This document shows, one piece after another, positions 5,518 to 27,345 of a stretch of DNA of 36,949 nt (its first letter is position 1; each line of letters starts with the position of its first letter). The notes below the pieces were generated by a model that worked only from the letters and a program-made list of their open reading frames with translations, searched no databases and had not been told where the DNA came from. Source of the DNA: an uncultured Chlorobiaceae bacterium (GTDB lineage: Bacteria; Bacteroidota; Chlorobiia; Chlorobiales; Chlorobiaceae); contig CAIPKT010000057.1 in assembly GCA_903865705.1 (NCBI GenBank), positions 1 through 36,949 on the forward strand. Direction: 5' to 3'. The position numbers and the translations under genes are program-made.

Positions 5518-5537
5518 ATACAACAAAAGGAGAACTG

Positions 5538-6083: not shown

Positions 6084-6112
6084 TGGACATATTTTGTTTA
6101 GTTCGTGAGCAA

Positions 6113-6138
6113 CCACCCTTTTTCGGGTGACTGGGTGG
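6113..6138. terminator. Hairpin between convergent genes
   Basis: CCACCC (6113-6118) pairs with GGGTGG (6133-6138), and ACCC-tttttc-GGGT offers an alternative inner stem. The hairpin lies between the stops of the lectin gene and hsdR, so it may end either transcript. The T-run is poor. Confidence 0.4.
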
Positions 6139-6147
6139 TGAATCGCC

Positions 6148-9100
6148 TTACGCGGCGTATACACTGCGCCCTGAACCATAATAGGCATCATAGACATGCT
6201 GGAACACCGCTGTTGATTTCTGCCTGAAGAGCTCCGGAGTGTATGCTCTTGGCAGATGGTCGTCCAGAATCTTGTCAATGGCAACCCTGACCGCTGCACG
6301 CGCTTGTTGCCGTTTCCGCCAATCAAGCACCAATTTGTTGTTCTTGAGTGTCACCAGCAAATCCTTTGCGGTCGCTTTCACCTTCTCCCGGTCAGCATCG
6401 CTCATCTCAATCGGTGGCTTCATCAACAGGTCAAAAAGTGCCAGCTCTTCTTCGGTTAACTGTTCACTCACCCCCCGTTTCTCCTCCTTATTCAGGCTTT
6501 GGGCAAAAGTGACCAGTTGCCGGAAAAACTCTTCGGGATTGAGGCTTCCGGCATTGTAGGCTGCAATCATTTGTTGAAACCGCTCGAGATAATCCATACG
6601 AGTCCGATTGAGTCGAACCATTGCCATCAGCTTTTGCCCTACACTTCCCTTGAGTTTTTCGTTGAGCGTCCGCTTCCTGCTTGTTTTGAACTTTTCAGCC
6701 AGCTTGTCAAAATCAATGGAGCTGAGGTCAATCAAGTGCTCATCGTTATCAGGATCGCTCACCTCTCTGATAACATAGCCTTCTGTTGCAATCGACTGAT
6801 CAAGAAGCGCTTCAACCTGCTCCATCACCTGTGTAATATCGGCAGAGGGAACCAATGCACGAATTTTATCAGCAATGACCTTGATGGGCGATACCTCAAC
6901 AGCAAACTCATGCGCCCGCAGGTCGGGCAGCACCGCCTTGTAAAGCCGCTGGACGGTGTTGGTCAAATCAAGATAACGTCGTTTGACTTCCTCTGACGCA
7001 ATCAGTGCCTCGACGGCATTGTCGAGCAGATCAACACGCGAAAACCCTTCAGCATTCTGGATAGAGGCCAGGTTTACACCCTGTTGTGTACACAGGCTGC
7101 GGGTCTCTTCCAATCCCTGCCGTAATGCAACCACCAATGCGGACTTGTCCTCAACCGGCTTCTTGCCGCAGCCGCCACCCACACCGTAAATAGCCAGAGC
7201 TTTCTCAAGATTGCGGAACACACCGGCATAGTCTACAATCAGACCACTGATCTTGTCAGGAAAAACCCTGTTGGCACGGGCGATAGTCTGCATCAGGGTG
7301 TGGTTGCGCATCGGCTTGTCGAGGTAGAGGGTAGAACAGCTCGGCACATCAAACCCGGTCATCCACATGGCGCAGACAAAAACCAGGCGGAACGGGTCAT
7401 CCGGGTCCTTGAATTTCTTTTCAAGATCCTCGTCTACCATTCGTTTACGGTGCCGTCGGATGTCCAGCCCCTTCTCGTTCATATCGGCTATCTCATTCTG
7501 CCCCTGAGAGACCACCACCGCCATATCGGTCTCTTTCATCCGTGCAATGCGATCGTTGATGTCTCGCCTCTCTGCATCAATACTTCGCATCAGTTCAGCC
7601 TGCAATGAAGCAATCTTCGCCGTCCAATGCTTGTTTACCTTGTCATACATCTTGATGGCTGTCGCCTTGTCGATGCAGATCATCATCCCCTTGCCCTGAA
7701 AGCCGCGTCCGGTGAAATGTTCCACAAGATCTTTTGCTACTCTCTCCAGTCGGTCGTCACGGGTAATCAGGTGATACTCTCGGGCAAACTCCCGCTCAAG
7801 CTTCTTCTCCTGTGCCTCGTCAAGCTCTGCGGCTTCGAGCAGGCGCTCCATATCCTCGTTGAGGTTCTCATTGACCAGTTGCAGCTCAGGGATTCGGTTT
7901 TCATAATAGAGAGGAACTGTTGCTCCATCGGCCACCGACTGCTGGAAGTCATAAACGCTTACGTACTCACCAAAAACCTGCCGGGTTTTCTCTTCCCCAA
8001 TAATCAGCGGAGTTCCTGTAAATGCCAGGAAAGAGGCGTTTGGGAGAGCGGTGCGCATATTCATCGCCAGAGTGTCATACTGGCTGCGGTGAGCTTCGTC
8101 GGTGATGACAATGATGTCTCGACGGTCGGAGAGCATGGGGTGAGCCTCTCCATTTTCGGTGCGGAACTTGTGAATCAACGTGAACACATAGCGGTGATCC
8201 TCCGTCAACAACTGCCGCAGATGCCTGCTGCTTTCGGCTTGGGCGCCATTTTCAGTGACCACACCGGCTGAGGCAAAGTGTTTGTAAATTTGGCCGTCCA
8301 GCTCCTGCCGGTCAGTAACAACAACAAACGTCCAGTTCCCCGGCACCTTGCGCAGTACCTTCTGGGCAAAGAACATCATCGAGATACTTTTTCCACTCCC
8401 TTGCGTGTGCCAGAAGACTCCCAGCTTCCCCTCCCGCTGGCGAATATCGGCAAGAGCTTCCAGCGCATTATTGACACCGAGATACTGGTGATTCTTCGCC
8501 GTCAGCTTGATCAATCCGCCCGGAGCCTCCTGAAAGAGGGTGAAGTTTTCAACCAGGTCAAGAAACCGTGCAGGGTCACAGACTCCGCGCAGCATGGTCT
8601 CCAGCGATACCTGCCCGGCCTCACTTTCACTGCCAATCTTTTTCCAGTCTGCAAAGTGTTCCCACCCGGCAGACAAGGTTCCAAGGCGGCTCTGGCTGCC
8701 ATTGGAGATGATGATGAGCGCATTGGCCCAGAAAAGCTGCGGCACGGTATCCTTGTAGTCGCGCAAATTATCTTTCCAGGCCGCTTCAAGCCGTCGATGG
8801 GTGGCTTTCAGCTCAATGAAGAGCAAAGGCAACCCGTTCACAAAGCCAACCAGATCAGCACGGCGCGTGTGCATTTCACCCGTTACCCAGAACTGCGAAC
8901 AGAGCAGAAAGTCGTTGTTGAGGGCGTTCTCCCAATCAACCACCCGAACCACTTCCACCGTGTCGCCATCTCCATCGGGATCGACTACCGACACCCGGAT
9001 GCCACTTTTGAGCAGAAGGTAGATTTCGCGATTGGCGGCAACCGGAGCCATGCGTGACCGGTCGCGGGTCAGCTCTTCGATGGCCAGGTGGATCGACTCG

Positions 9101-9309
9101 ACCGCCACATCGGGGTTGAGCCGCAACAGGGCCAGACGCAAGCGGGTTTTAAGCACCACTTCCGCTTTGGTCTCACGGCCAAGCGGGCTTACACCGTGGT
9201 CGAACTCCCGATAGGCGTTGAAACTCTCCCAGCCGAGCGTCGAGAGCAAGGCAATGGCTGGCTGCTCAACCAGAGCATCTTCGGTGTATCCGCCTGGAGG
9301 TGGTGTCAT
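6148..9309 (-). CDS. hsdR: Type I restriction enzyme, HsdR endonuclease/translocase subunit
   Basis: The 1053-residue protein has the full type I R-subunit plan. An N-terminal PD-(D/E)xK nuclease carries D152 and the ELK triad at 166-168 (LLFIELKAT). The first helicase lobe has Walker A TQGSGKS (302-308) and DEAH at 404-407. Then come AFTGTPLI (motif III) and motifs V-VI in MWMTGFDVPSCSTLYLDKP and QTIARANRVF. The C-terminal helical region joins HsdM. It works with HsdM and HsdS to translocate and cut DNA lacking the host methylation. The start ATG overlaps the stop of the 63-codon ORF by ATGA. No frameshift or lost catalytic residue is visible. Confidence 0.95.
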   Translation of the reverse strand: MTPPPGGYTEDALVEQPAIALLSTLGWESFNAYREFDHGVSPLGRETKAEVVLKTRLRLALLRLNPDVAVESIHLAIEELTRDRSRMAPVAANREIYLLLKSGIRVSVVDPDGDGDTVEVVRVVDWENALNNDFLLCSQFWVTGEMHTRRADLVGFVNGLPLLFIELKATHRRLEAAWKDNLRDYKDTVPQLFWANALIIISNGSQSRLGTLSAGWEHFADWKKIGSESEAGQVSLETMLRGVCDPARFLDLVENFTLFQEAPGGLIKLTAKNHQYLGVNNALEALADIRQREGKLGVFWHTQGSGKSISMMFFAQKVLRKVPGNWTFVVVTDRQELDGQIYKHFASAGVVTENGAQAESSRHLRQLLTEDHRYVFTLIHKFRTENGEAHPMLSDRRDIIVITDEAHRSQYDTLAMNMRTALPNASFLAFTGTPLIIGEEKTRQVFGEYVSVYDFQQSVADGATVPLYYENRIPELQLVNENLNEDMERLLEAAELDEAQEKKLEREFAREYHLITRDDRLERVAKDLVEHFTGRGFQGKGMMICIDKATAIKMYDKVNKHWTAKIASLQAELMRSIDAERRDINDRIARMKETDMAVVVSQGQNEIADMNEKGLDIRRHRKRMVDEDLEKKFKDPDDPFRLVFVCAMWMTGFDVPSCSTLYLDKPMRNHTLMQTIARANRVFPDKISGLIVDYAGVFRNLEKALAIYGVGGGCGKKPVEDKSALVVALRQGLEETRSLCTQQGVNLASIQNAEGFSRVDLLDNAVEALIASEEVKRRYLDLTNTVQRLYKAVLPDLRAHEFAVEVSPIKVIADKIRALVPSADITQVMEQVEALLDQSIATEGYVIREVSDPDNDEHLIDLSSIDFDKLAEKFKTSRKRTLNEKLKGSVGQKLMAMVRLNRTRMDYLERFQQMIAAYNAGSLNPEEFFRQLVTFAQSLNKEEKRGVSEQLTEEELALFDLLMKPPIEMSDADREKVKATAKDLLVTLKNNKLVLDWRKRQQARAAVRVAIDKILDDHLPRAYTPELFRQKSTAVFQHVYDAYYGSGRSVYAA

Positions 9310-9497
9310 GATTGGGACTCCTTTGCTGGCAAATATCGTTTCTGTGGGTCGTAAGTGCTCTTGCCAATGGCTTCACGGAACCCGGCAAACAACCCGGACA
9401 CAACCCGGACGTCCAGTGTGTCCGGGTTGATCTCAGGCTCAGGATTGAACGCAACGGTTTTTCCCTCAGGTCGGCTGAGTAACGTTTCAATTTTCAT
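9306..9497 (-). CDS. 63-residue ORF between hsdS and hsdR, possible AlbA_2 remnant
   Basis: The frame starts at ATG 9497, overlapping the hsdS stop as ATGA, and ends at 9306, overlapping the hsdR start as ATGA. It therefore sits exactly as a translationally coupled gene. The first residues, MKIETLLSRPEGKTVAFN, resemble the start of Schlafen/AlbA_2-domain regulators often encoded in hsd operons, where the stretch usually reads SRPEGKTLEFK. After about residue 17 the resemblance stops, and a repeat-rich segment follows. I infer a large in-frame deletion that left only the N-terminus and a tail; a new small peptide or a spacer ORF keeping coupling are alternatives. No function can be assigned. 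Confidence 0.55.
   Translation of the reverse strand: MKIETLLSRPEGKTVAFNPEPEINPDTLDVRVVSGLFAGFREAIGKSTYDPQKRYLPAKESQS
9379..9428. repeat. Short tandem and inverted repeat in the 63-codon ORF
   Basis: Three tandem units of 11-12 bp share the core AACCCGG (9379-9390, 9391-9401, 9402-9412). The middle unit, AACCCGGACAC, recurs as a perfect inverted copy at 9418-9428 (GTGTCCGGGTT). The repeats lie entirely within the 63-codon ORF. Confidence 0.75.
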
Positions 9498-10771
9498 GCA
9501 ACGGCCTCCTCTGGAATGGCAATATCAAGTTCGGAGACATCCACCTCGCCGGAGATGAGCCTAGGCAGCAGCATGTCGCGTGTGCGGCGAAGAGAAATGT
9601 TTTTTTTTGCCAATATAAATGATTGTTGAAAAATCGGGGCAATATGAATAGTGAATTTTGACAAGGTATCTTGATCAGGATGGGCAATTACGAAATTGTC
9701 AAAACATTTTTCAGAAACTCTTTGACGGCCTGTTGCACCCGACATACTCTTGATCGCATTGTCACGAAATTCACTGGAACGAGCCAATAAATAGACGAAC
9801 TCAGGTGATAAGCTCAACGAACGAAGAACAATGAATTCTGTAGAACCGAAAGCTACAGCCTTATCATTTGAGAGAAACTGTACATATCCTGTCTTACCAT
9901 TTTCGAGACAAGGTGTGATTCGAGCAAAGAGAGTATCAGTATTTTGAAACTTGGAACCGCTATTACCAGTCCGAGTTTCCACTTCACAAATCAACATCGA
10001 ATTATTGGCGAGTAATCCCATTGATACAAAAGGCTTTTCCCCATTTTTTGGGACGCGCACCTTTGGATTGACAGCAATCGACGTTGTAACTGCTTTCGCT
10101 TCCCATCCCTCCGGTATCATTCCCAAAGGTGAATCGACAAAGCGGGCCTGCTCATGGCCGGGAAAGCGGAACTTGACGAACCACTCACGGTAGAGGTTTT
10201 GTGCCATCTCCTCCAAAATCTTGATCCGCCGCAGGTTGTTCTCAATCAGCTCGTCGTAAGCTGAGAGGATAGCTGCGATTTTTCGTTGTGTCAGGAGTTC
10301 TGGCAGATAGATTTCCAGACAAGGGACATCTTCCAATCGCATGTGTTCAACTGTAGCGCCTGACCCATAGCCTCTGATTTGACCTTGTAAATCATCGTAC
10401 AGCAGTGCATAAAGCAAAAAATCAGCATCCAGTTTTTGTGGATTTGTTCGGAAGTGATAAAGACGTTGTCCCAAAAATATCTGGTCATCTGATCGGATTT
10501 TACCAACTTTACCCAACGGAGCCTCGCGTGTGAGTATCACGTCCCCTCTTTTTGGTATAAGGCGACGTGTCCATTTTTTATAGGTTTCCTCAGTAACACA
10601 TCGCACGTTTTCAGTGTCGATAAATCCATCACGCACGTTCGTTGTGCGGATCATCTTATATGGTGTTGGGGAGTCAACAACTGGTGCTGTGCGATTCACG
10701 CAATCCACATGAGCTTCGCATAGTTCAACAATTGGAACACGACACCACTTTTTCGAGTTTAAACTCTTCAC
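9494..10771 (-). CDS. hsdS: Type I restriction enzyme, HsdS specificity subunit
   Basis: The start is GTG 10771, behind a strong AAGGAGG site (10782-10776) and overlapping the previous stop as GTGA; a longer frame to 10825 lacks this support. The 425-residue product has two target-recognition domains. The first (about WCRVPIVELC to EIYLPELL) is followed by the central conserved helix AILSAYDELIENNLRRIKIL. The second (from GMIPEGWEAKAV to FVIAHP) is followed by a C-terminal helix ending RDMLLPRLISGEVDVSEL. It chooses the bipartite DNA site for the HsdM2S methylase and the HsdR2M2S nuclease. The actual site cannot be read from the sequence. Both halves look intact. Confidence 0.93.
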   Translation of the reverse strand: MKSLNSKKWCRVPIVELCEAHVDCVNRTAPVVDSPTPYKMIRTTNVRDGFIDTENVRCVTEETYKKWTRRLIPKRGDVILTREAPLGKVGKIRSDDQIFLGQRLYHFRTNPQKLDADFLLYALLYDDLQGQIRGYGSGATVEHMRLEDVPCLEIYLPELLTQRKIAAILSAYDELIENNLRRIKILEEMAQNLYREWFVKFRFPGHEQARFVDSPLGMIPEGWEAKAVTTSIAVNPKVRVPKNGEKPFVSMGLLANNSMLICEVETRTGNSGSKFQNTDTLFARITPCLENGKTGYVQFLSNDKAVAFGSTEFIVLRSLSLSPEFVYLLARSSEFRDNAIKSMSGATGRQRVSEKCFDNFVIAHPDQDTLSKFTIHIAPIFQQSFILAKKNISLRRTRDMLLPRLISGEVDVSELDIAIPEEAVA

Positions 10772-11088
10772 TTCCCCTCCTTCAGCAAATTGCCAACACT
10801 TCGAGCAGGCCCTTGCGCACTCCAACGTTCAATACGACACATTTCAGCATAAAAATCACGCTGCAAAGATTTTTCAAGAGGGATGATTTCACAAAAATGC
10901 GACCAACTCAATTGTTGCGACAGTGTCGCAACAATTCGCGTTCCAATTCGCCAGTAGAGCATGGTCATTGCAGCATTAACCGCCGCAGCGAGGCTCCTGC
11001 GGCTCTCTTCAATCATCCCGCGAAGCTCATCCAGAAGTGGAGGTGATACACGCATCATTCCGTCGGTCTCTCTTTGCTTGTTCGCCAT
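10768..11088 (-). pseudogene. DUF1016/YhcG-type nuclease remnant, internally deleted
   Basis: The 106-residue frame (ATG 11088, TGATG overlap with the hsdM stop) begins like the DUF1016 N-terminal domain of YhcG-type proteins: LLDELRGMIEESRR, then LYWRIGTRI. It jumps straight to IVATLSQQLSWSHFCEIIPL and RDFYAEMCRIERWS. In full-length relatives a first IVATLS-type segment follows LYWRIG, then several dozen residues, then a second copy before SWSHF, so this protein looks like the product of recombination between those two similar segments. After RWS the sequence no longer fits the family, and the C-terminal PD-(D/E)xK nuclease is absent. It remains open and coupled between hsdM and hsdS. It is very unlikely to be an active nuclease. 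Confidence 0.75.
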
Positions 11089-12638
11089 CACTCCACCTCC
11101 AGCAGCTTCACAACATTCTCCGCAATCCGCTCTTCCAGCTCCCGCGCCTCAATGTTGAGGGTTTCGAGTTCCTCGTTCAGCTCTTCAAGCCGCTCCTTAA
11201 AATCGAAGTCATCTTCAACTCTGGCGGTAACACCCACATAGCGTCCGGGGTTGAGGCTCCACCCCTGTGCTTCGATATCTTCTTTTGTGGCTATTTTGCA
11301 CAATCCGGCAATGTCGGCGTAGTGGCCATCGGGGAAGTGTTCTCCAACCAATTCGGTACTATCATGCAGGTTCTCTGTAGCTTCACCACGGTAGAGCCGG
11401 ACAATATTGGCCAGAAACTCAATTTGTGCCGGTGTCCAGTCGCGGTGAGCGCGGTCAATCTGGCGGTAGAGGTGACGAGCGTCGATGAAGAGCACCGTAT
11501 CAACCCAGTTGCTCTTGCGTTTGCCCTTGTCGAAAAACCAGAGGGTGCAGGGGAGCGTCACGGTGTAAAAGAAGTTGGAACCAACGGCGACCATCACATC
11601 CACAACACTTGCCTCAATGAGTTCACGCCGGATATCCATTTCAGAACCACGGGCATCGGATGCAGAGTTGGCCATGACAAACCCTGCTCGACCAGTTTCG
11701 TTTAGAGCACTGTAAAAGAGCTGAATCCAGAGGTAGTTGCCGTTATCGGTACGTGGCAGACCAAAGGGAAACCGCTTGTCATCCTTGAGCCGTTCCTTGT
11801 CGATTCGGTCAACGTTGAAGGGCGGATTGGCCATGACGAAGTCAAACTTTCCAATAGAGCTGTGCAGATCCTCGTAGTAAGCGTTGCCCTGACGAATATC
11901 GCCACCAAGCCCATGGACCGCAAGGTTCATCTTGCCAAGACGCACTGTCTCAGAAACCTTCTCCTGCCCGTAAACGCTCAGCTCAGCATCAGGGTTCATC
12001 TTGTGTTCACCAACAAAGCGGGCGCTCTGCACAAACATGCCGCAGGAACCGCAGGCCGGATCAAAAATACGCCCATGAAACGGTTCGATGATGCTGACAA
12101 TGAGCTGAACAATGGCGGTTGGAGTAAAGAACTCTCCCCCCTTCTGCCCCTCGCTCATGGCAAAGTGCCCAAGGAAGTATTCATAAATCTTGCCAAAAGC
12201 ATCCCCCTCAATGTCCATAGGAACAGAGTTCATGGTTTTGAGCAGCTCCTTAAGCAGGGAGTTCTCAAAACGGTTGTAGGTTTTAGGCAAAACATCCTTG
12301 AGATCCGGGTTCTCCGCTTCAATGGCCCGCATGGCCTCGTTGATTGCCGCACCAATGTTGACACTTTCAGGGAGTTGTATCAGTGTCGAAAAGCGAGCCT
12401 CCTCCGGCAGAAAGAGCACACCCTGAGCCTGGTAGTCCGCCGGGCCGATGCTGCGACGGTTCCCACCTGATCCCTCAAGCTCTTTCGCTGCTACCTGGAA
12501 CTTGTGGTCGGCAAATCGCAAAAAGACCAGCCCAAGAACTGGAACCGAGTATTCCGAAGATTTCAGCTTAGAGTTAGCCCGAAGTTCGTCTGCCGCTGCC
12601 CAAAGTCGTGATTCTATGTTGCTTCCGTTGTGGTTCAT
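11088..12638 (-). CDS. hsdM: Type I restriction enzyme, HsdM adenine methyltransferase subunit
   Basis: The product has 516 residues from ATG 12638 ([20 protein letters not shown]), the usual N-terminus of this family. An upstream in-frame GTG at 12698 would add 20 atypical residues. The N-terminal helical domain is followed by an N6-adenine methylase core with [17 protein letters not shown] motif I at 193-202 ([10 protein letters not shown]) and catalytic motif IV NPPF at 271-274. The C-terminal coiled coil contacts HsdS. Motif I normally reads GSGGMF; here the third residue is Cys, a single-base change. It is the first gene of the minus-strand operon hsdM - remnant - hsdS - ORF63 - hsdR. 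Confidence 0.95.
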
Positions 12639-12864
12639 GGATTGGTCTGTAGTCAGTAGTAATTTGTATATGCCGATCTTGGTGAAGTAATCTATCACTC
12701 AGTTTCATAATGTACCATAACTCTAATACAAGGTCACACGAACAAAAAAAAATCCGTTTTCTGAAGCGACACCAAAAAAAGTCTCTTATCGGTACGAATC
12801 GATGAAGCAAGCATGAAGAACACAACCGACTTTAGGGCGAAGCCTCATCGTTCAGTTCGCAAGG

Positions 12865-13173: not shown

Positions 13174-13845
13174 ATGAAAAAGAGACTCTTCACCGGGTTG
13201 TCAGTTGGTATGCTGTTGTTGGTGCCGGTTGTTGCTCAAGCCACACTCACCACCTACAACGATAGGTCTGCATTCGATGCGGCAGTAGGAAGCACCCCGA
13301 TTATAAATTTTGAGGCACAGCAGAAGAACGAGTGGATTGGAGGAACCGATTATGGTGCAAACCTAACGGTTGGTGATGTGAGTTTTACTCAATTAAACGG
13401 TCAGCTTGAGGTTATATCTCCGGCTTGGTCACCACAAAATTCCAATTTCCTATACAACCCATACAACCCCAATGTTCCTCAGACATTTGTCATTAACTTT
13501 GCATCGAAAGTTTCATCTGTCGGAATGGATCTTGCGTGGGCCTGGGGTTATTGGGGTACTGGAGGCATGATGGATATTGCCTTAAATAATGGCGAATCAT
13601 TTACAAAGTATAATGTCTCTGGCCCATTGTACTATTCAGGCCTGCCCCTCGGTTTTGTTGGATTTAGTTCGGACAACCCCTTCTCTTCGATTACTATTAT
13701 CGATCCAAGCCATTCTACTAGCATTGACAACTTCGCGTACAAAACCTCCCCCAACCCCGAGCCAGCCACCATGCTGCTTCTGGGCACAGGCCTTGCCGCC
13801 CTTGCAGGAGCACGCAAGCTGAAGAAACAGCAGTTGCCTGCATAA
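13174..13845 (+). CDS. PEP-CTERM exported protein, body of unknown fold
   Basis: The 223-residue precursor starts at ATG 13174 behind TTTGGAGAA. A signal peptide (MKKRLFTGLSVGMLLLVPVV, cleavage near AQA) is followed by about 170 residues beginning TLTTYNDRSAFDAAVGSTPI and containing NFEAQQKNEW and VINFASKVSSVGMDLAWAWG. This resembles the beta-rich bodies common among PEP-CTERM proteins, but I cannot name a domain. The C-terminus has NPEPATMLLLGTG, a hydrophobic helix and ARKLKKQQLPA, a complete sorting signal for exosortase-dependent export. Its 3' third also exists as the relic at 3552-3813. Expression is probably controlled by the shared leader. Confidence 0.85.
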   Translation: MKKRLFTGLSVGMLLLVPVVAQATLTTYNDRSAFDAAVGSTPIINFEAQQKNEWIGGTDYGANLTVGDVSFTQLNGQLEVISPAWSPQNSNFLYNPYNPNVPQTFVINFASKVSSVGMDLAWAWGYWGTGGMMDIALNNGESFTKYNVSGPLYYSGLPLGFVGFSSDNPFSSITIIDPSHSTSIDNFAYKTSPNPEPATMLLLGTGLAALAGARKLKKQQLPA

Positions 13846-17757: not shown

Positions 17758-17780
17758 TCAGATTGATTCCCCTAAATTTC

Positions 17781-20270
17781 ATGAAACAAACGCGAAAACT
17801 GATAACTCTGGTTCTGCTTGCTTTGGCACTCAATGCAGCAGGAAAAACCGTTGAAGCAAAAAGTTTGCCCGTCAAACAGCCCGGTGCTCAAGAACAGTCC
17901 ATAAATAACGCTCCAAAAAAGGAGCTCTACACGGTAACGGCCATCTCTTTCAGCGGTCTTCAATCACTCAGTGAACAGGAATTGACAGCCAGTATCCCGC
18001 TTAAAGTCATGGACAAGATCACCATCCCCGGAACTGAACTCTCGGGAGCGCTGCAATACCTCTGGAAACTGCAGCTTTTCAGCGATATCACGGTTGAAAA
18101 AAACGATCTTGGACAAAATAATATCGCGCTGAAATTCACCGTCACCGAACTGCCTGCGCTCGATCAGGTAACCTTTACCGGCAACAGCAAACTCAACAGT
18201 GAAGATCTGAAGAAGACGGCGGCCCTGGTGACCGGCAAAAAAATCAGCCCGCAGGAACTGCTTACCGCCGCCAACAAAATTGAAAAGTCTTATGCTGCAA
18301 AAGGTTACCTGACAGCCGAAGCAAAATTCAAGTTAGAGGAGAGCGGAAAAAATCAGGTCAAGGCACTTTTCTCGATAACCGAAGGCCCTAAAGTCTCGAT
18401 TGAAAAAATCACCTTTCACGGCAACACCGCCTTCAGCCAGAAAAAGCTGAGAGGAGTTTTCAAAGAGACCAATCAAAACTCATGGTGGCGCAAAATCTTT
18501 GGCACGCCAAAACTTGATAACGAAAAATTTGGTGAAGACAAAAACCTGCTGGTTGAGTTTTACCGCGACAACGGCTATCGCGACGCACGTATCGTGAGTG
18601 ATGCAATCAGCTATACCGAGGACAAAAAAGGACTTTTTCTCGATATTTATCTGGAAGAAGGGTTGAAATACCATATCAGAAACATCACCTGGACGGGCAA
18701 TGCAAAGGCTTTTGCGACAACTGAAATTCTCGACCGTACCTTCCGCATCAAGCAAGGTGATCTCTATAGCCCGAAACTGATACAGGAACGTCTGAACTTT
18801 TCGCAAGATAACTCCGACGTCAGTTCACTCTATCTCGATCGCGGCTACCTCTCCTTCAAGACTAACATTGAAGAGCTGATCATCAAACCCGATCAGGTCG
18901 ATCTGGTTATCACCATGAACGAGGGCGAACAGTTCCAGTTCAACACCATCCTGATCAAAGGCAATACAAAGACAAAAGATCATGTGATCCGCCGTGAGCT
19001 GTACACCATTCCTGGCGACATGTTCAGCCGCAAAAACGTTGTCCGCAGCATCCGCGAATTGAGCATGCTCAACTACTTCGATCCGCAGCAGATTACGCCT
19101 GATATTCAGCCGAATCAGGATAATAACACCGTTGACATGACCTACAATGTCACCGAAAAACAGACCGATACCTTCAACGCTTCGGTAGGCTACAGCGGCA
19201 GCGGCGTTACCGGTGCGCTCGGAGTCACCTTCAGCAACTTCTCGTTGCAGGATATTTTCAACCGCGAGGCCTACAAACCACTGCCACACGGCGACGGGCA
19301 ACAGCTTGGTTTGCAATGGCAGTTCGGAAGCTACAACTACAACACGCTCAGCCTCTCCTTTACCGAACCATGGGCATTCGGCGGTCCGACGGCGGTGGGC
19401 TTTTCGGCATTCAAAACCCACCGGTCTTACTACTTCGATACCAATGACGTTAACAACGCCACAAATATTGACCAATACGGCACCACGCTCTCCATCGGAA
19501 GGCGCCTCACCTGGCCGGACGATTACAGCTCCGTCAACTGGAAGCTGAAATACATTCACAGCGAAGGAGGCCTTTTGAGTCCTGTTTATAACGACATAAA
19601 CGCCCCAACCAAGGCTGACGAATTTTCAATAACACAAACGCTTAGCCGAAACAGCATCGACAGCCCACTCTATCCGCGAAGAGGCAGCAAAAACTGGATC
19701 ACGGCAGAGCTTGCCGGCGGACCACTGCCCGGCACGGTCGATTTCTATAAATTCACCGAAAGCTCAAGCTTTTACTTCCCGATAACCAAAGACGTCATCT
19801 GGAATGTGGCGATGCAGCACGGCTATCTCTCGACCTTCTCGAAGAGTGACTACATCCCTTACACCGAGTACTTCTACATGGGCGGCACGGGCATGTCTTC
19901 GTTGCCCACCATACCGCTGAGAGGCTATGACGACCGGAGCCTCGGTTCAACGCATGGAGACTCAGGCCTCTATAACGGAACCATCTACTCGAAGTTCACA
20001 TCAGAACTGCGCTACCCCTTTACCCTTTCACCATCAATCAGTATTTATGGACTGGTTTTTGCTGAAGCAGGTGGCCTCTGGGAAAACGCACAGGCCGTCG
20101 ATTTTTCGAAGCTGAAAAAATCAGCCGGCCTTGGGCTGCGGCTCTATCTACCCATTATCGGCCAGATCGGACTTGATTACGGCTACGGATTCGATGCCGT
20201 TGAAAGCATTCCTTTAAAGACAAAGCAGGGATGGAGCTTTATGTTCAGCTTCGGCTCGGCCGCCGACTAA
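17781..20270 (+). CDS. bamA: Outer-membrane protein assembly factor BamA (Omp85)
   Basis: BamA folds and inserts beta-barrel proteins into the outer membrane. ATG 17781 gives a proper signal peptide (MKQTRKLITLVLLALALNAA) and an 829-residue protein; an upstream TTG (17763) would add six residues. POTRA-type repeats start at LYTVTAISFSGLQSLSEQEL, LDQVTFTGNSKLNSEDLKK, VSIEKITFHGNTAFSQKKL, YHIRNITWTGNAKAFATTEI and FQFNTILIKGNTKTKDHVI, which makes five. The C-terminal barrel carries the lock motif LRGYDDRSLG and closes with GWSFMFSFG. It lies in the uppS transcript and immediately upstream of an array of barrel genes, its likely clients. Confidence 0.96.
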   Translation: MKQTRKLITLVLLALALNAAGKTVEAKSLPVKQPGAQEQSINNAPKKELYTVTAISFSGLQSLSEQELTASIPLKVMDKITIPGTELSGALQYLWKLQLFSDITVEKNDLGQNNIALKFTVTELPALDQVTFTGNSKLNSEDLKKTAALVTGKKISPQELLTAANKIEKSYAAKGYLTAEAKFKLEESGKNQVKALFSITEGPKVSIEKITFHGNTAFSQKKLRGVFKETNQNSWWRKIFGTPKLDNEKFGEDKNLLVEFYRDNGYRDARIVSDAISYTEDKKGLFLDIYLEEGLKYHIRNITWTGNAKAFATTEILDRTFRIKQGDLYSPKLIQERLNFSQDNSDVSSLYLDRGYLSFKTNIEELIIKPDQVDLVITMNEGEQFQFNTILIKGNTKTKDHVIRRELYTIPGDMFSRKNVVRSIRELSMLNYFDPQQITPDIQPNQDNNTVDMTYNVTEKQTDTFNASVGYSGSGVTGALGVTFSNFSLQDIFNREAYKPLPHGDGQQLGLQWQFGSYNYNTLSLSFTEPWAFGGPTAVGFSAFKTHRSYYFDTNDVNNATNIDQYGTTLSIGRRLTWPDDYSSVNWKLKYIHSEGGLLSPVYNDINAPTKADEFSITQTLSRNSIDSPLYPRRGSKNWITAELAGGPLPGTVDFYKFTESSSFYFPITKDVIWNVAMQHGYLSTFSKSDYIPYTEYFYMGGTGMSSLPTIPLRGYDDRSLGSTHGDSGLYNGTIYSKFTSELRYPFTLSPSISIYGLVFAEAGGLWENAQAVDFSKLKKSAGLGLRLYLPIIGQIGLDYGYGFDAVESIPLKTKQGWSFMFSFGSAAD

Positions 20271-20376: not shown

Positions 20377-20409
20377 CACACAAGAAATTGTGTGGGCAGT
20401 GTTTTTTTT
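20377..20409 (+). terminator. Hairpin plus T8, bamA terminator or attenuator
   Basis: CACACAA-GAAA-TTGTGTG (20377-20394) is a perfect seven-base-pair stem with a GAAA tetraloop, followed after seven bases by eight T (20402-20409). It lies about 107 bp after the bamA stop. A TATAAT hexamer at 20341-20346, with no good -35, lies just upstream, so the hairpin might instead be in the barrel gene's 5' leader. Confidence 0.5.
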
Positions 20410-20445
20410 GATGCCTTTATTCAAACAAAAACTATGGGGGAAACA

Positions 20446-21225
20446 ATGAAAAAATCTCTTTTATTGCTTACAGCTTTAGCCGTTGCTGGCATGTCGAGTA
20501 CATCGGCACAGGCAGCAACACATTACGTCAGCGGATTTGGCGGTGTTTCGTGGATGCAGAATATGGATGCATCAGACACCTATATTTCTGATCCGGGCTC
20601 AGGAGATCATACCGCAAATTATGACTTAGGTACAGGCTTTACTGTAACCGGTGCCATCGGTTGTGATTACGGCAGCTACCGTCTTGAGGCTGAGGTCGGT
20701 TACCAGACAAATGATTTCAAGTCGGCGATTGACTATACTGATGGTGTTGCTGATAATTACCCTTCAGATGCTATTGGTACCTTATCTGCCAGTTATCCGA
20801 TGAGGGGCGACGTTTCCGCACTCACGCTCATGGGCAACGGCTACTACGATGTCGACCTTGGCAGCAAGGTTGAACTTTACGTAACTGCCGGTGTCGGTGT
20901 CGCTCAGGTCTCCTTCCATGATGTCAATGATACCGGTAGTTGGACTGCAGGATCAGGAGAACTTTCTGGTACTTATATATTTGGTGCGAATAATGATCCC
21001 GGATTCAACGCACACGAAACAACCCTTGCCTGGCAGGTTGGCGCTGGTATTGCCGCTCCGATAGCCGACAACGTCAAGCTGGATCTCCGTTACCGCTACT
21101 TCGCAACAACGGACTTCACCGTTGCTGACATGGGGGAGGAGATGCCTAGCCCTAATAACACCATTTCACGGAACACCAACCTCTCCAGCCACAGCGTCCT
21201 GCTCGGTTTGAGAGTTGATTTCTAA
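20446..21225 (+). CDS. Outer-membrane beta-barrel protein, array copy 1
   Basis: From ATG 20446, behind GGGGGAAACA, the 259-residue precursor has the signal peptide MKKSLLLLTALAVAGMSSTS (cleavage after AQA) and mature start ATHYVSGFGGVSWMQNMD. Alternating strands follow (GAIGCDYGSYRLEAEVGYQ, TLMGNGYYDVDLGSKVELYV, LAWQVGAGIAAPIADNVKLD). It ends SVLLGLRVDF with a terminal Phe for BAM recognition. The fold is that of opacity/OmpA-like eight-stranded barrels. The first about 130 coding bases are nearly identical to copy 2 at 22012. Its upstream leader is unlike those of copies 2 and 3, suggesting that this copy is at the outer edge of the duplication. Ligand unknown. Confidence 0.85.
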   Translation: MKKSLLLLTALAVAGMSSTSAQAATHYVSGFGGVSWMQNMDASDTYISDPGSGDHTANYDLGTGFTVTGAIGCDYGSYRLEAEVGYQTNDFKSAIDYTDGVADNYPSDAIGTLSASYPMRGDVSALTLMGNGYYDVDLGSKVELYVTAGVGVAQVSFHDVNDTGSWTAGSGELSGTYIFGANNDPGFNAHETTLAWQVGAGIAAPIADNVKLDLRYRYFATTDFTVADMGEEMPSPNNTISRNTNLSSHSVLLGLRVDF

Positions 21226-21256
21226 GAGATAAGTTCTTTTGGTCAAGCCTTACATG

Positions 21257-21284
21257 GAGCCCTGCAATGCGGGGCTCTTTTTTT
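21257..21284 (+). terminator. Rho-independent terminator, barrel copy 1
   Basis: GAGCCC-tgcaatgcg-GGGCTC followed by seven T, about 32 bp after the stop codon. The same stem is found after every gene of the array. Confidence 0.9.
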
Positions 21285-21820
21285 ACCCGCCAACCACGTT
21301 GACCACCTTCATGACCGTTGCCGTTCTTTCTTCATTCCTTGTCCAGCAGGGCACGCTGAGCAGTTTTTGACTGTTGAACAACGAAGCACCGCCGACGACG
21401 CGCACATGGTTATACACTTCCGGATCAGCATCTTCCATGATGATAAGCTGCGGGCAAAGTGTTTCAGCAAAAGATAGCTACTCAAGGGGAGAATAGGATG
21501 AGTTACGGTGTTCCGTCTGTTCTCTGCCAACCAGCAGAACATCACACCACTCCACAGGCCACCCGTTTCTCATCACCTGATTATCCGTAACGTGCAGAAT
21601 CATGGCGTCGACCGTACTGTCCAGCGAGAGCATCCTCGCGCCATCGAATGCACCGGAACAGGTTTTATTGACGCACTCCTTAACTGTCCAGACCTCCTTG
21701 CCACTGACAAGACCGGCGTTGATTCCTCTTGCGATGCGTTCCCGCCTTATTGAAAAACTGATATTTTCCGCGCTCCATTCGGCCTCCACAATAATCACAA
21801 CAGGGATTCTCCCGTTACCG
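21283..21820 (-). pseudogene. Decayed 3' end of the ATP-grasp/Mur-like gene
   Basis: Read on the minus strand, this matches residues from about 475 to the C-terminus of the intact protein at 22798-24720: GNGRIPVVIIVEAEWSAENI, then NKTCSGAFDGARMLSLDSTV and PVEWCDVLLVGREQTE. A TGG codon has become TAG at about 21478-21480. Past it the same frame continues (LSFAETLCPQLIIMEDADPE) through a 23-residue segment absent from the intact copy, to a stop at 21283. The 5' three quarters are gone; the break lies at GTTACCG (21814-21820), after which the sequence is the leader of the next barrel gene. Confidence 0.85.
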
Positions 21821-22011
21821 AACGACAAGGATTGAAAACGTATCTCATGCTGAATGTATTGGCTTCTTGAGGATATCCAAACAATCAGAATCCTCCATTT
21901 TTTCCAGTGACACTTTTTGAGATACAAATTAATTACGTTAACTTAAAATTATAAAGCTTGTAATCTTTTTTGACTTGAACTGACAACAAGTAAATCCATA
22001 GGGAGGAAACA
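21814..22011 (+). repeat. Barrel leader repeat, copy before 22012
   Basis: This about 200-bp leader is nearly identical to 24753-24949 before barrel copy 3, including the GGGAGGAAACA ribosome-binding site and a TTTTTTGACTTGAAC stretch about 45 bp before the start codon. Copy 3 has TATAAT where this one has TGTAAT upstream of that stretch. In copy 3 the same DNA includes the region just 5' of the ATP-grasp start codon. Confidence 0.8.
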
Positions 22012-22773
22012 ATGAAAAAATCTCTTTTATTGCTTACAGCTTTAGCCGTTGCAGGCATGTCGAGTACATCGGCACAGGCAGCAACACATTACGTCAGCGG
22101 ATTTGGCGGTGTTTCGTGGATGCAGAATATGGATGCCTCAGAGACCTATATTCAGGATGCTCGTGGAGAAGATTCTTCTACTGACTTGGGTTCAGGTTTG
22201 GCTCTGACCGGAGCTATTGGCTGTGATTACGGCAGCTATCGCTTTGAGGCTGAGGTTGGCTACCAGACAAACAATGTCAAGTCGGCGATTGACTATATTA
22301 ATGGTGATGCTGAGACTTATCCTTCAGATGCTATTGGGACCTTATCTGCCAGTTATCCGATGAGGGGCGACGTTTCCGCACTCACGCTCATGGGCAACGG
22401 CTACTACGACGTCGACCTTGGCAGCAAGGTTGAACTCTACGCAACAGCCGGTGTCGGCGTCGCCCAAGTCTCCTGCCATGATGTCAATGATACCGGTAGT
22501 TGGACAACAAATGGACAAAGTGGATATACGTTATCTCCCAATAATGATCCCGGGTTCAACGGTCACGAAACCACACTTGCCTGGCAGGTTGGCGCAGGTA
22601 TTGCCGCACCGATTGCAGATAACGTCAAACTTGATCTCCGTTACCGCTACTTCGCAACAACGGACTTCACCGTTGCTGACATGGGGTCACATGGTAATTA
22701 TTTCGGTACCAATTCACTCAACACAAACCTCTCCAGCCACAGCGTTCTGCTTGGTTTGAGAGTCGACTTCTAA
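22012..22773 (+). CDS. Outer-membrane beta-barrel protein, array copy 2
   Basis: The 253-residue precursor has the same signal peptide and mature start as copy 1 and a strong GGGAGG ribosome-binding site. Predicted membrane strands are almost unchanged (GAIGCDYGSYRFEAEVGYQ, TLMGNGYYDVDLGSKVELYA, LRYRYFATTDFTVADMG), and it ends SVLLGLRVDF. Differences from copy 1 cluster in likely loops: residues about 44-60 (ETYIQDARGEDSSTD), about 165-180 (TTNGQSGYTLSPNND), and the stretch after VADMG. One Cys (VSCHDVNDT) replaces Phe of copy 1. It is convergent with the ATP-grasp gene, whose stop codon lies 24 bp beyond its own. Confidence 0.85.
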   Translation: MKKSLLLLTALAVAGMSSTSAQAATHYVSGFGGVSWMQNMDASETYIQDARGEDSSTDLGSGLALTGAIGCDYGSYRFEAEVGYQTNNVKSAIDYINGDAETYPSDAIGTLSASYPMRGDVSALTLMGNGYYDVDLGSKVELYATAGVGVAQVSCHDVNDTGSWTTNGQSGYTLSPNNDPGFNGHETTLAWQVGAGIAAPIADNVKLDLRYRYFATTDFTVADMGSHGNYFGTNSLNTNLSSHSVLLGLRVDF

Positions 22774-22797
22774 GGGATTACCTCTCTTGGTCAAGCC

Positions 22798-24720
22798 TTA
22801 CATGGAGCCCTGCAATGCGGGGCTCTTTTTTTTGCTCAGCCCATCGACCACCGTCATGACCGTTGCCGTTCTTTCTTCATTCCCCGCCCAGCAGGGCACT
22901 TCCTTATCACCATCTTCCATGATGATAAGTTGCGGGCAAAGTTTTTCAGCAAAAGAGAGCCACTCAAGGGGAGAATAGGATGGGTTACGGTTTTCCGTCT
23001 GTTCTCTGCCAACCAGCAGAACATCACACCACTCCACAGGCCACCCAGTCCTCATCACCTGATTATCCGTAACGTGCAGAATCATGGCATCGACGGTGCT
23101 GTCTAGGGAGAGCATCCTTGCACCATCGAAAGCACCGGAACAGGTTTTATTGACACAGTGCTCACCGATCCACACCTCCTTGCCACTGACAAGACCGGCG
23201 TTGATTCCTCTTGCGAGGCATTCCCGCTGTATTGAAAAACTGATGTTTTCAAGGCTCCATTCGGCCTCCACAATAATCACAACAGGGATTCTCCCGTTAC
23301 CGCCCTTAAACATGGTGACCAGCATGGTCTTTTGCAAGGTGTTTATCATCCCGGGCCTGGCATTGACCTCACAAATCCAGGCGCCAGTATCGAGGCAGGA
23401 GCGTTCAATATCCGGAATAAGCAGGTCAATGCCGGCAACATCCAGTCGCAGAGCTTTTGCCGCGCGCATTGCCAGTGCGAGATTGTCGGGGTGCACCTGG
23501 AGCAACGGTACGGGTATGAGCACGCCGCCACTCGAACGATTACAGGCTCCCCTGAGCCTGACCCATTGACCGTCTTTCGGAATCGAATTGCCGTCAAGAT
23601 TTTGATCGGCTAACAGCTCTTTTGCCTCTTCGTCAAAGGCAATTGAACGCAGAAGACGGCGATCATCTTCCGCCGTCTCTCGCTGTTGATTCTGCCGTTC
23701 AATCAGGGTCGTGACGGCATCCCTGCCGTTGCCTGTGACTCCTCCCACCACCCGTTCATAGGCGCCAAATACTTCACCACTGGCTACCAGAATCCGATAG
23801 TCGCGCCCCGTCACATGCTTTTCAACAAGTACCTGTTGCGAACACTTTGCAGCAGCCAAAAATGCCCGGGCAACGGACTTGGCCGATTGCAGATTGGTCC
23901 TGACACCCTTCCCGTTATCCAGATCGGCAGGCTTTATGACAACGGGATAGCCCAACACTTCGGCCTGCCGAATGGCCTCCTCCTTACTCCTGACAAGAAA
24001 ATGTTCCGGTACTGGTAACCCCAAAATATGCAAGATATAAGCAGCGGATGGTTTATGGCGAGCAAGCTTCGTAGAAATGACCGGTGTTGTATCAGTAAAA
24101 GTGCTGTCAAGCCAGCGAGCGTTACGGCCAACCCCCAACTGGAAAACATTACCCGTTAAGTGAAACCATTGGATACCCAGTTCAGAGGCTGCTTTCAAAA
24201 TAAATTTCTGGTTCAAGCCTTGCAATTCAGTAAAAGCAAGAGTTTGCTGGAAGCTGCTGAACGATTCTTTGACCTCCTTGAGACCATCAACAAACCTTTC
24301 CTGAAAAGCCAATTTCAAGAGCCGTATGACAAAAACAACTGCCGCTAATGCAGCTCCATGATCCATGCAGGGCTGAAAAATAAGATAGTGATTTGGATTT
24401 TTACCCTCGGTCTTCAGGATACGAGCTGGCTCAAAAACCGGATGATTTGCCTGATTGAGAAGAGCTGAAGGCCACTGCAAAAGGCGCATCAGGACTGGAT
24501 CATTTTCATCAGGCAGAACAAAATCACAGGGCACGCCCAACTCTTTCAAAAAAAAGGCATCAATTTCAGGAAGATTGGGCGGATTTACAATTTCGAGATG
24601 CAGCTTGTAACGCAGCGTTGGCTGATGGAAACCATGGACGTATCCCTGAAAGGCATATGGCTTGCCTGTCAGCTCAAGCGCGGAAAGCGAAGAAGATTGA
24701 GCACTGGCGTTCGAATTCAT
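22798..24720 (-). CDS. Cyanophycin-synthetase-like ATP-grasp protein with degenerate Mur domain
   Basis: The 640-residue protein matches the order of cyanophycin synthetase but stops short of its about 870 residues. Residues 1-210 are a CphA-like N-terminal domain. Residues about 215-465 are an ATP-grasp with VVIKPADLDNGKGV (260-273), VLVEKHVTGRDYRILV, GGVTGNGRDAVTTLIE, VRLRGACNRSSGG, VAGIDLLIPDI and the metal-site EVNARPGM (451-458). Residues about 477-600 align with the Mur-ligase central domain (NKTCSGAFDGARMLSLDSTV, WCDVLLVG), but the GTNGKTT P-loop is replaced by VEAEWSLEN, and the final Mur domain is missing. It could join one amino acid to a peptide or carboxylate, but probably cannot complete both cyanophycin steps. 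The last eleven residues are encoded through the neighbour's terminator hairpin. Confidence 0.8.
   Translation of the reverse strand: MNSNASAQSSSLSALELTGKPYAFQGYVHGFHQPTLRYKLHLEIVNPPNLPEIDAFFLKELGVPCDFVLPDENDPVLMRLLQWPSALLNQANHPVFEPARILKTEGKNPNHYLIFQPCMDHGAALAAVVFVIRLLKLAFQERFVDGLKEVKESFSSFQQTLAFTELQGLNQKFILKAASELGIQWFHLTGNVFQLGVGRNARWLDSTFTDTTPVISTKLARHKPSAAYILHILGLPVPEHFLVRSKEEAIRQAEVLGYPVVIKPADLDNGKGVRTNLQSAKSVARAFLAAAKCSQQVLVEKHVTGRDYRILVASGEVFGAYERVVGGVTGNGRDAVTTLIERQNQQRETAEDDRRLLRSIAFDEEAKELLADQNLDGNSIPKDGQWVRLRGACNRSSGGVLIPVPLLQVHPDNLALAMRAAKALRLDVAGIDLLIPDIERSCLDTGAWICEVNARPGMINTLQKTMLVTMFKGGNGRIPVVIIVEAEWSLENISFSIQRECLARGINAGLVSGKEVWIGEHCVNKTCSGAFDGARMLSLDSTVDAMILHVTDNQVMRTGWPVEWCDVLLVGREQTENRNPSYSPLEWLSFAEKLCPQLIIMEDGDKEVPCWAGNEERTATVMTVVDGLSKKKSPALQGSM
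22805..22833 (+). terminator. Rho-independent terminator, barrel copy 2
   Basis: GAGCCC-tgcaatgcg-GGGCTC followed by eight T, identical in its stem to the copy 1 terminator. It overlaps the 3' coding end of the opposing ATP-grasp gene. Confidence 0.9.
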
Positions 24721-24949: not shown

Positions 24950-25690
24950 ATGAAAAAGACTCTTTCACTTCTTTCTGTTTTAATGGCTGCCGGTGTCGCA
25001 GCAACGCCGGTACAGGCCGCAACCCAATACGTCAGCGGCTTTGGCGGTGTTTCATGGATGCAGAACATGAATCTTGACGAGCTCTATCAGGCTACCAGCG
25101 GAAACATTAGCACCGATTATGATTTAGGTACAGGATTTACTGCAACTGCTGCCATCGGTTGTGATTACGGCAGTTATCGTTTTGAAGCTGAAGCTGGCTA
25201 CCAGACAAATGATTTCAAGTCGGCAGTTGATTTTATTGATGATGTAGCAATAGACCCCAGTCCATACGTAAATCCTCGGGTTGGCTCAAGCTATCCTGTC
25301 AGGGGTGATGTTTCTGTGGCCTCGCTCATGGGCAATGGCTACTACGATTTCGACCTTGGAAGCAAGGTTGAACTCTACGCAACGGCCGGTGTCGGTGTTG
25401 CCCAGATCTCCTACCACGATGTCAATATTACCGGTAGTTGGTCCAGTGTGACTTGGACACCTAACAATGATCCCGGTTACAATGGCCATGAAACCACGCT
25501 TGCCTGGCAGGTTGGCGCAGGTATTGCCGCACCGATTGCCGACAATGTCAAGCTTGACCTCCGCTACCGCTACTTCGCCACAACGGACTTCACACTTACT
25601 GGGGATGGATTTGATTTTGTAACTATGCAGACCGGAAACACCAATATCTCCAGTCACAGTGTTCTGCTTGGTTTGAGAGTTGATTTCTGA
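24950..25690 (+). CDS. Outer-membrane beta-barrel protein, array copy 3
   Basis: The 246-residue precursor starts at ATG 24950 behind GGGAGGAAACA. The signal peptide is MKKTLSLLSVLMAAGVAATP (cleavage after VQA), and the mature start is ATQYVSGFGGVSWMQNMN. It keeps the GCDYGSYRFEAEAGYQTNDF strand pair, NGYYDFDLGSKVELYATAG, HETTLAWQVGAGIAAPIADN and the SVLLGLRVDF end. Loops differ from copies 1 and 2, for example IDDVAIDPSPYVNPRVG in place of the DAIGTLSA segment. It is more distant than copies 1 and 2 are from each other, yet its leader is almost identical to that of copy 2, so leader and coding part have different histories. Confidence 0.85.
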   Translation: MKKTLSLLSVLMAAGVAATPVQAATQYVSGFGGVSWMQNMNLDELYQATSGNISTDYDLGTGFTATAAIGCDYGSYRFEAEAGYQTNDFKSAVDFIDDVAIDPSPYVNPRVGSSYPVRGDVSVASLMGNGYYDFDLGSKVELYATAGVGVAQISYHDVNITGSWSSVTWTPNNDPGYNGHETTLAWQVGAGIAAPIADNVKLDLRYRYFATTDFTLTGDGFDFVTMQTGNTNISSHSVLLGLRVDF

Positions 25691-25932: not shown

Positions 25933-26643
25933 ATGAAAAAAACTCTTTCACTTATTGCTGTTTTGGCCGTGGCTGGCATGGCAAGCGCACCGGCTCAAGC
26001 TGCAACACATTATGTTAGTGGTTTGGGCGGCATTTCATGGATGCAGAACATGAAGCTTGACCAGGTCTATCAGGATGCCAGTGTTAACTACAGCATTGAT
26101 TATGATCTCGGCTCAGGCGTTAACCTTTTGGGTGCTATCGGTTGCGATTACGGTAGTTATCGCTTTGAAGGGGAAGTCGGCTATCAGCGGAACAACCTGA
26201 AAACCGGGAGTGAATCTACGAACGGGATTGTCGATGTTACTCCCCGAGGTGACAGTCCCGCATCCCCTTATGACATGAAGGGCGACGTTTCCGTGCTTTC
26301 GCTCATGGCTAACGGCTACTACGATTTCGACCTCGGAAGCAAGGTTGAACTCTACGCAACTGGCGGTGTCGGTGTTGCGCAGGTTTCCTTTCTTGATGAG
26401 AATGATGTAGCTAATATTGATCCTGGCTACACTGGCCATGAAACCACGCTTGCCTGGCAGGTTGGTGCTGGCTTTGCTGCACCGATTGCCGATAACGTCA
26501 AGCTTGATCTCCGCTACCGCTACTTCGCCACAACGGACTTCACCTTTTCAGAAGGCGCGGGTGCAGCAGCTCAAAGCAATTACACCTACAACACCAACGT
26601 TTCAAGCCACAGCGTCTTGCTTGGTTTGAGAGTTGACTTCTGA
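25933..26643 (+). CDS. Outer-membrane beta-barrel protein, array copy 4
   Basis: The 236-residue precursor starts at ATG 25933 behind CTGGAGAAAACA. The signal peptide is MKKTLSLIAVLAVAGMASAP (cleavage after AQA), and the mature start is ATHYVSGLGGISWMQNMK. Strands match the other copies (GAIGCDYGSYRFEGEVGYQ, NGYYDFDLGSKVELYATGG, TTLAWQVGAGFAAPIADNVK), and it ends SVLLGLRVDF. It is the most divergent and shortest array member: the loop before HETTLAWQ is cut to DENDVANIDPGYTG. Its leader lacks the long repeat shared by copies 2 and 3. It is the last gene of the array and convergent with the nuclease gene. Confidence 0.85.
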   Translation: MKKTLSLIAVLAVAGMASAPAQAATHYVSGLGGISWMQNMKLDQVYQDASVNYSIDYDLGSGVNLLGAIGCDYGSYRFEGEVGYQRNNLKTGSESTNGIVDVTPRGDSPASPYDMKGDVSVLSLMANGYYDFDLGSKVELYATGGVGVAQVSFLDENDVANIDPGYTGHETTLAWQVGAGFAAPIADNVKLDLRYRYFATTDFTFSEGAGAAAQSNYTYNTNVSSHSVLLGLRVDF

Positions 26644-26754: not shown

Positions 26755-27345
26755 TCATGAGCTGCGTTTAAGGCGCGTTATTTCATCGCGCAGCCGGGCG
26801 GCTTCTTCGTAGTTTTCGTTGTTGATGGCATCATTGAGTTCTGATTGCAGCTCTTCGAGCAGGGCGTCGGTACGAAGCAGGCCGGCGGGCAGCTCTTCTG
26901 GCTCAAGCGGGCTCTCCTCTTCGCCTTCTTCTTTTTGCTCTTCTTTGATACCTGCCTCGTTCATGATTTCTTCGGTCACATAGAGCGGCGCGTTAAAACG
27001 CACGGCAATGGCAATGGCATCGCTGGGGCGTGCATCAATTTCATGCACTTCGCCATTCATTTCACAGACAACCTTGGCATAAAAGGTCTCGTTGTGCAGT
27101 TCATCAATAATAATTTCATTGACTCGCAGATGAAAGGCATCGGCAATATTTTTGAACAGGTCGTGGGTGAAGGGGCGGGGCGGCTTTATGTTTTCAAGTT
27201 TGAGGGCAATGGCCTGTGCCTCGAAGCCGCCGATAATAATTGGAAGTTTCCGTTTTCCCTCGAGCTCGTAAAGAATAAGGGCATAGGCTCCATTGGTATG
27301 GGGGCTTGTCGAAAGTCCGAGAATATCTACCTGAAGTTTACGCAT
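26755..27345 (-). CDS. Bifunctional nuclease family protein (DUF151) with UVR motif
   Basis: The 196-residue product has an N-terminal DUF151/BFN domain (about 1-135). Its typical stretches are LPIIIGGFEAQAIALKLE, RPFTHDLFKNIADAF and IDARPSDAIAIAVRFNAPLY. An acidic linker follows (EEQKEEGEEESPLEPEEL). The C-terminal UvrB/UvrC-type helical hairpin (about 160-193) contains LNDAINNENYEEAARLRDEI. DUF151 proteins of Chlorobi and Bacteroidetes often have this two-domain form; plant relatives have DNase/RNase activity. Partners in this organism are unknown. It is downstream of etfA on the same strand, separated by about 80 bp, and may have its own promoter. Confidence 0.9.
   Translation of the reverse strand: MRKLQVDILGLSTSPHTNGAYALILYELEGKRKLPIIIGGFEAQAIALKLENIKPPRPFTHDLFKNIADAFHLRVNEIIIDELHNETFYAKVVCEMNGEVHEIDARPSDAIAIAVRFNAPLYVTEEIMNEAGIKEEQKEEGEEESPLEPEELPAGLLRTDALLEELQSELNDAINNENYEEAARLRDEITRLKRSS

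Follow-up and report, generated by a model that had tools for sequence, protein, structure and literature searches.

What does a cyanophycin synthetase-like (CphA-like) protein do when its Mur-like half has lost the P-loop and its last domain is missing? The gene that raises this question lies in a 36,949-nucleotide stretch of Chlorobiaceae DNA (the window; Table 1). A sequence-only reading had described the product as a CphA-like ligase in which the ATP-grasp half keeps its motifs and the dead Mur domain serves only for binding. The analysis described here supports a CphA-derived protein in which one ATP-using site is intact and the Mur core, no longer catalytic, is kept for structure or binding.

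Architecture of the short ligase

The ligase reading frame starts with ATG and contains no internal stops. The top family models for the protein are both CphA models, NF010623 (299 bits, residues 107–570) and TIGR02068 (274 bits), and the ATP-grasp part is matched by Pfam RimK. These scores are about one third of the curated cut-offs (877 and 850 bits, respectively), placing the protein outside CphA1 as defined by curated score. CphA1 chains in the PDB align to residues 172–570. A usable AlphaFold model (pLDDT 72.5, pTM 0.66) was built on a nine-sequence alignment, as single-sequence prediction gave a pLDDT of only 31.7. From residue 15 onward the model aligns with CphA1 from its residue 1 (Z 27.3 against CphA1 residues 1–581), and Foldseek matches it to CphA2 (7ta5, E 8e-31; 8fxi, E 5e-29), such that the predicted fold resembles both enzymes. 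A second structural comparison returned mostly single ATP-grasp domains, and the absence of CphA2 from that result is not evidence. The tail of the model beyond residue 572 is of low confidence.

Table 1. Positions of the ligase, its parts and its neighbours in the window
Feature	Position	Strand	Remarks
CphA-like short ligase, intact	22798..24720	(-)	640 aa
N domain, residues 15–165, CphA-type fold	24226..24678	(-)	Cx19HxxEH primer-making site absent
ATP-grasp G domain, residues 166–463	23332..24225	(-)	profile, PDB, alignment and model
Phosphate-binding loop KPADLDNGKGV, residues 263–273	23902..23934	(-)	Asn269 at CphA1 His267 position
Degenerate Mur core, residues 464–572	23005..23331	(-)	without P-loop and lid domain
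VEAEWSLEN, residues 484–492	23245..23271	(-)	occupies GTNGKTT position
Second ligase copy, remnant	21253..21831	(-)	residues ~470–640; 86% then 74% identical
OMP_b-brl barrel, copy 1	20392..21225	(+)	neighbour, outside ligase function
OMP_b-brl barrel, copy 2	22012..22773	(+)	neighbour
OMP_b-brl barrel, copy 3	24950..25690	(+)	neighbour
OMP_b-brl barrel, copy 4	25933..26643	(+)	neighbour
BamA/Omp85	17763..20270	(+)	left border of conserved interval with ligase insertions
Bifunctional nuclease (BFN) gene	26755..27345	(-)	right border of that conserved interval

Alignment and relatives bear out the earlier observation that GTNGKTT has been lost, with VEAEWSLEN in its place, and that the last Mur domain is absent: no C-terminal lid was found 3' of the Mur core in the window ligase, where the reading frame stops about 70 residues later. 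The loss of GTNGKTT is common to four close relatives (70–78% identical; two from genome G021 and one each from G002 and G106), and also occurs in every more distant short relative examined. Because close and distant short relatives show the same loss, it is a family trait and no sequencing error, and a frameshift or sequencing error concealing the P-loop is ruled out. By its substitution pattern, the dead Mur part is constrained as is the catalytic part, since pairwise dN/dS values in clade I (the window ligase with its relatives from G021, G002 and G106) are 0.21–0.29 overall and 0.15–0.28 in the pseudo-Mur part.

Catalytic residues, phylogeny and the comparison with CphA2

The ATP-grasp half had been said to hold its expected ATP and metal motifs, and the alignment agrees. 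The catalytic residues Arg309, Arg323, Asn394 and Ser396 (CphA1 numbering) are retained, as is the metal-site E/N pair, and the fold of the N and G domains is shared with CphA1. The differences from CphA1 lie in the determinants of cyanophycin synthesis. Of the three CphA1 residues concerned, His267 supports the acyl phosphate, whereas Glu215 and Arg458 recognise the primer (through its Arg side chain) and the incoming Asp, respectively; activity is impaired or abolished when they are mutated (PMC9427784). The window ligase has Asn, Lys and Ile at these positions, respectively. Both His267 and Glu215 are replaced in all short Chlorobiaceae, Ramlibacter and phage members examined, and Arg458 in all but one (G021a, with Arg at a position where the alignment is uncertain). 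Also missing from the window ligase are the primer-making motif Cx19HxxEH and the Mur P-loop and lid, which in CphA1 serve Arg side-chain ligation. Cyanophycinase was found in none of the 86 Chlorobiaceae genomes (the positive control matched elsewhere), and no full-length CphA was found in the source genome (G000). Judged from these residues and genes, the window ligase is probably not a cyanophycin maker.

Full-length CphA relatives with an intact Mur P-loop do occur in four Chlorobiaceae, and His267 is missing there too. The full-length CphA-like proteins at loci L053, L048, L075 and L076, in which the Mur P-loop is intact, carry Gln or Phe at the His267 position and Arg at the Glu215 position, and are adjoined by ThiF/ThiH-type genes.

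In a tree of G domains, clade I stands beside a Ramlibacter protein (support 99/97), followed by clade II (99/96) and clade III (97/87). Together these lie apart from CphA1, CphA2 and the N-acetylglutaminylglutamine (NAGGN) synthetases. The window ligase does not group with CphA2; the CphA2 pair falls outside, with its own placement weakly resolved. When more Ramlibacter sequences were added using a quick method, protein L121 of Ramlibacter sp. WS9 fell within clade I at full SH-aLRT support. Its identity is 51% to the G106 member and 47% to the window ligase, while L027 of the same genome is about 36–39% identical to the latter. These are the nearest relatives outside Chlorobiaceae; they have likewise lost the P-loop and lid, and differ in their genomic locations. 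No described function was found for either. In some betaproteobacteria, cphA' genes adjoin cphA.

The sequence-only reading knew of no described system with this arrangement. Such a system exists: the layout has a described counterpart in CphA2, because P-loop^M and Mlid are also missing from cyanobacterial CphA2 (PMC9427784; structures 7TA5 and 8FXH/8FXI) and the model aligns with CphA1 and CphA2. Both CphA2 and the window ligase combine N and ATP-grasp G domains with a Mur core devoid of P-loop and lid, leaving a single, intact ATP-grasp site. They are similar in length (629–642 aa in the PDB versus 640 aa), and His267 and Arg458 of CphA1 are replaced in both. Since CphA2 joins beta-Asp-Arg dipeptides using one site (PMC10206079), the window ligase could be its equivalent, linking beta-Asp-Arg units or a close analogue into cyanophycin through its one ATP-grasp site. 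The shared domain loss, fold and residue replacements favor this explanation, which is nevertheless unlikely. Sequence identity in the structural alignment is only ~21–22%, the GHKGIG loop of CphA2 is absent (LDNGKG in the window ligase), and the tree places the protein elsewhere, with clades I to III and Ramlibacter. A CphA2 is expected alongside CphA1 and cyanophycinase, the suppliers of its beta-Asp-Arg, and this co-occurrence is not seen in the source genome. There is no known source of beta-Asp-Arg, because cyanophycinase is missing from all Chlorobiaceae genomes searched and full-length CphA from the source genome. Furthermore, the neighbours of the relatives are tailoring enzymes, as described below.

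The barrel genes and the duplication

The window contains a direct repeat (20433–21820 and 21999–23302, 85–91% identical), and the ligase had been thought to be duplicated together with barrel genes. The duplicated unit is a barrel and the C-terminal part of the ligase, so that only one intact ligase remains. Of the remnant copy, no more than ~170 C-terminal residues are left, and these carry an in-frame TAG as well as another early stop, ruling out a second functional copy.

A link between the ligase and the barrels had also been considered conceivable, and it would follow if the ligase modified the adjoining outer-membrane barrels or another surface acceptor. Barrels do flank the ligase in the window and at loci L036, L039, L041 and L071 in the same interval (at L043, a barrel fragment), but the interval between BamA and BFN carries barrels and no ligase in five other genomes (G096, G001, G032, G093 and G105). 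OMP_b-brl barrels occur in 62 of the 86 Chlorobiaceae genomes versus 22 with any CphA-type match, and most ligases are located outside the interval, with homologues scattered with no barrel beside them, the pattern that the sequence-only reading had named as speaking against the link. In addition, ATP-grasp chemistry takes place in the cytoplasm, and no signal sequence is evident in the ligase. Barrel modification is consequently very improbable, and the BamA–BFN interval looks like a spot for insertion of ligase cassettes in which the barrel is a bystander.

Elsewhere in the window, a type I restriction gene set spans 6148–12698, in which the reading frame at 6148–9309 matches the R subunit (HSDR_N, SWI2_SNF2). 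Two proteins (5484–6083 and 13174–13845) have C-terminal PEP-CTERM sorting motifs, and one of them has a C-type lectin domain.

Relatives, their neighbours and a proposed function

Short ligases (550–680 aa) lacking the Mur P-loop are found in 18 of the 86 Chlorobiaceae genomes, and 16 of these 18 have no full-length ligase, although some of the assemblies are incomplete. Most relatives were obtained from whole-genome searches, as a scan of contigs yielded two loci only. There are up to five ligases per Chlorobiaceae genome, and of the 13 CphA-family genes in Ramlibacter sp. WS9, 12 are short. Three short ligases of this organism lie in tandem near two ABC transporter genes (L118, 6371–11984). 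Short CphA-like ligases are also present on phage contigs. In viral contigs L089–L096 the ligase is 584–660 aa long and lies, in most, between a 308–309 aa gene of no recognised family directly upstream and a Methyltransf_24 gene downstream. In viral contigs L097–L099 a 565 aa ligase (5410–7107) is followed two genes downstream by Sulfotransfer_2, an arrangement that parallels the Stf0–ligase pair of Chlorobiaceae. No description of a short CphA in Chlorobium or Ramlibacter was found in the literature searched, which was covered in part.

The neighbourhoods of the relatives offer insight into the pathways in which these enzymes may act. G106 has a same-strand run of Stf0 sulfotransferase, ligase, methyltransferase and adenosine deaminase (ADA) genes separated by gaps of 22–91 bases, and G002 has the same order with a broken ADA gene. 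The Stf0 gene is found in two of the 86 Chlorobiaceae genomes, exactly these two. In Ramlibacter, as in G106, the ligase is adjoined by an ADA-like gene: the clade I ligase L121 is directly followed by a gene that carries an internal deletion and is 47–51% identical to the G106 ADA. The ADA partner is thus broken in two independent lineages (L039, 7673–8725; L121, 8035–8650) in which the ligase is intact, and the association may be a relic. Partners differ within clade I, as G021 has a seven-gene run of a clade III ligase, radical SAM/SPASM, GT2, phosphorylase (PNP) and SDR genes and two clade I ligases, the first five genes of which recur in G035 and G105. Clade II ligases neighbour methyltransferase and dehydrogenase genes, and clade IV ligases neighbour a PLP enzyme and a carboxyl methyltransferase. 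The small gaps in the operons leave little room for a graspetide precursor peptide gene. These neighbour lists are incomplete, since the longest-ORF gene caller misread the G+C-rich Ramlibacter and missed the G002 ADA and methyltransferase genes, which were recovered by tblastn.

The reading favored here, with a probability of roughly 0.55, is that the window ligase is a single-site amide (peptide) ligase derived from the cyanophycin synthetase family that forms one amide bond during assembly of a small tailored metabolite. By analogy with family chemistry, the G domain would bind ATP and Mg and phosphorylate the carboxylate of a substrate, and attack of an amine on the acyl phosphate would then give the amide bond. 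The Mur core, its own chemistry lost, would be retained for structure or for holding substrate, as in CphA2. Cyanophycin, Asp and beta-Asp-Arg are improbable substrates; a precursor of a tailored metabolite is suggested by the genes around close relatives, with a sulfotransferase and a methyltransferase as likely pathway partners in the clade. The argument for specialised metabolism is best founded in G106 and G002 and least so in the source genome, in which no tailoring gene stands beside the ligase and homologues of Stf0 and ADA are absent genome-wide. There, the ligase has been left alone, its partners gone, yet it is conserved.

The solitary position of the gene suggests two further explanations. 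One is that the ligase makes another cytoplasmic poly- or oligopeptide reserve or a compatible solute, either without Asp and Arg or as a NAGGN-like dipeptide. The closest characterised folds are indeed those of polymerases or dipeptide ligases (CphA, GshF), and the ligase has been kept in the source genome without partners. NAGGN synthetase (TIGR03103) and GshF are related ATP-grasp ligases that act on a small substrate to form a single amide bond, but the window ligase has neither a GNAT nor a glutamate-cysteine ligase part. It scores 129.8 bits against TIGR03103, far under the cut-off of 569. (A true NAGGN synthetase, at L085, scores 832 bits and is adjoined by an amidotransferase gene.) Specialised metabolism fits better because of the patchy occurrence, the multiplicity and the varied tailoring neighbours of these ligases, and a reserve or solute is a rather doubtful product. 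The other explanation is that the gene is an orphan heading for loss and inactive in the source organism. The pseudogene copy, the missing partners, the unique changes G269N (in the G loop) and W442C and the 16 residues missing near the C-terminus would agree with such a fate. However, the reading frame is full-length, dN/dS against the closest relative is about 0.24, and the share of unique changes (5.9%) is the lowest of the five clade I members, with no excess. Decay is therefore improbable, and a working amide ligase in a specialised pathway is still preferred.

The interest of this locus is in an overlooked ligase family more than in the window gene alone. Single-site amide ligases derived from CphA may form an undescribed, broad family, multiplied in genomes and carried by phages, that makes the amide bonds in numerous small tailored metabolites; the majority of CphA homologues in Chlorobiaceae would belong to it, and their hosts would be without cyanophycin. 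This wider proposal is tentative, at somewhat less than even odds. The window ligase also shows that constraint on a dead Mur core extends beyond CphA2. Counts of cphA homologues serve to infer nitrogen storage as cyanophycin, as for coral-associated green sulfur bacteria, which have 2–5 CphA homologues (PMC10158934). If most such homologues are repurposed ligases, this inference fails. If the proposal is true, these genes would encode uncharacterised amide-forming enzymes with ready-made operons, including sulfotransferase, methyltransferase, radical SAM and glycosyltransferase genes, in which their function could be tested.
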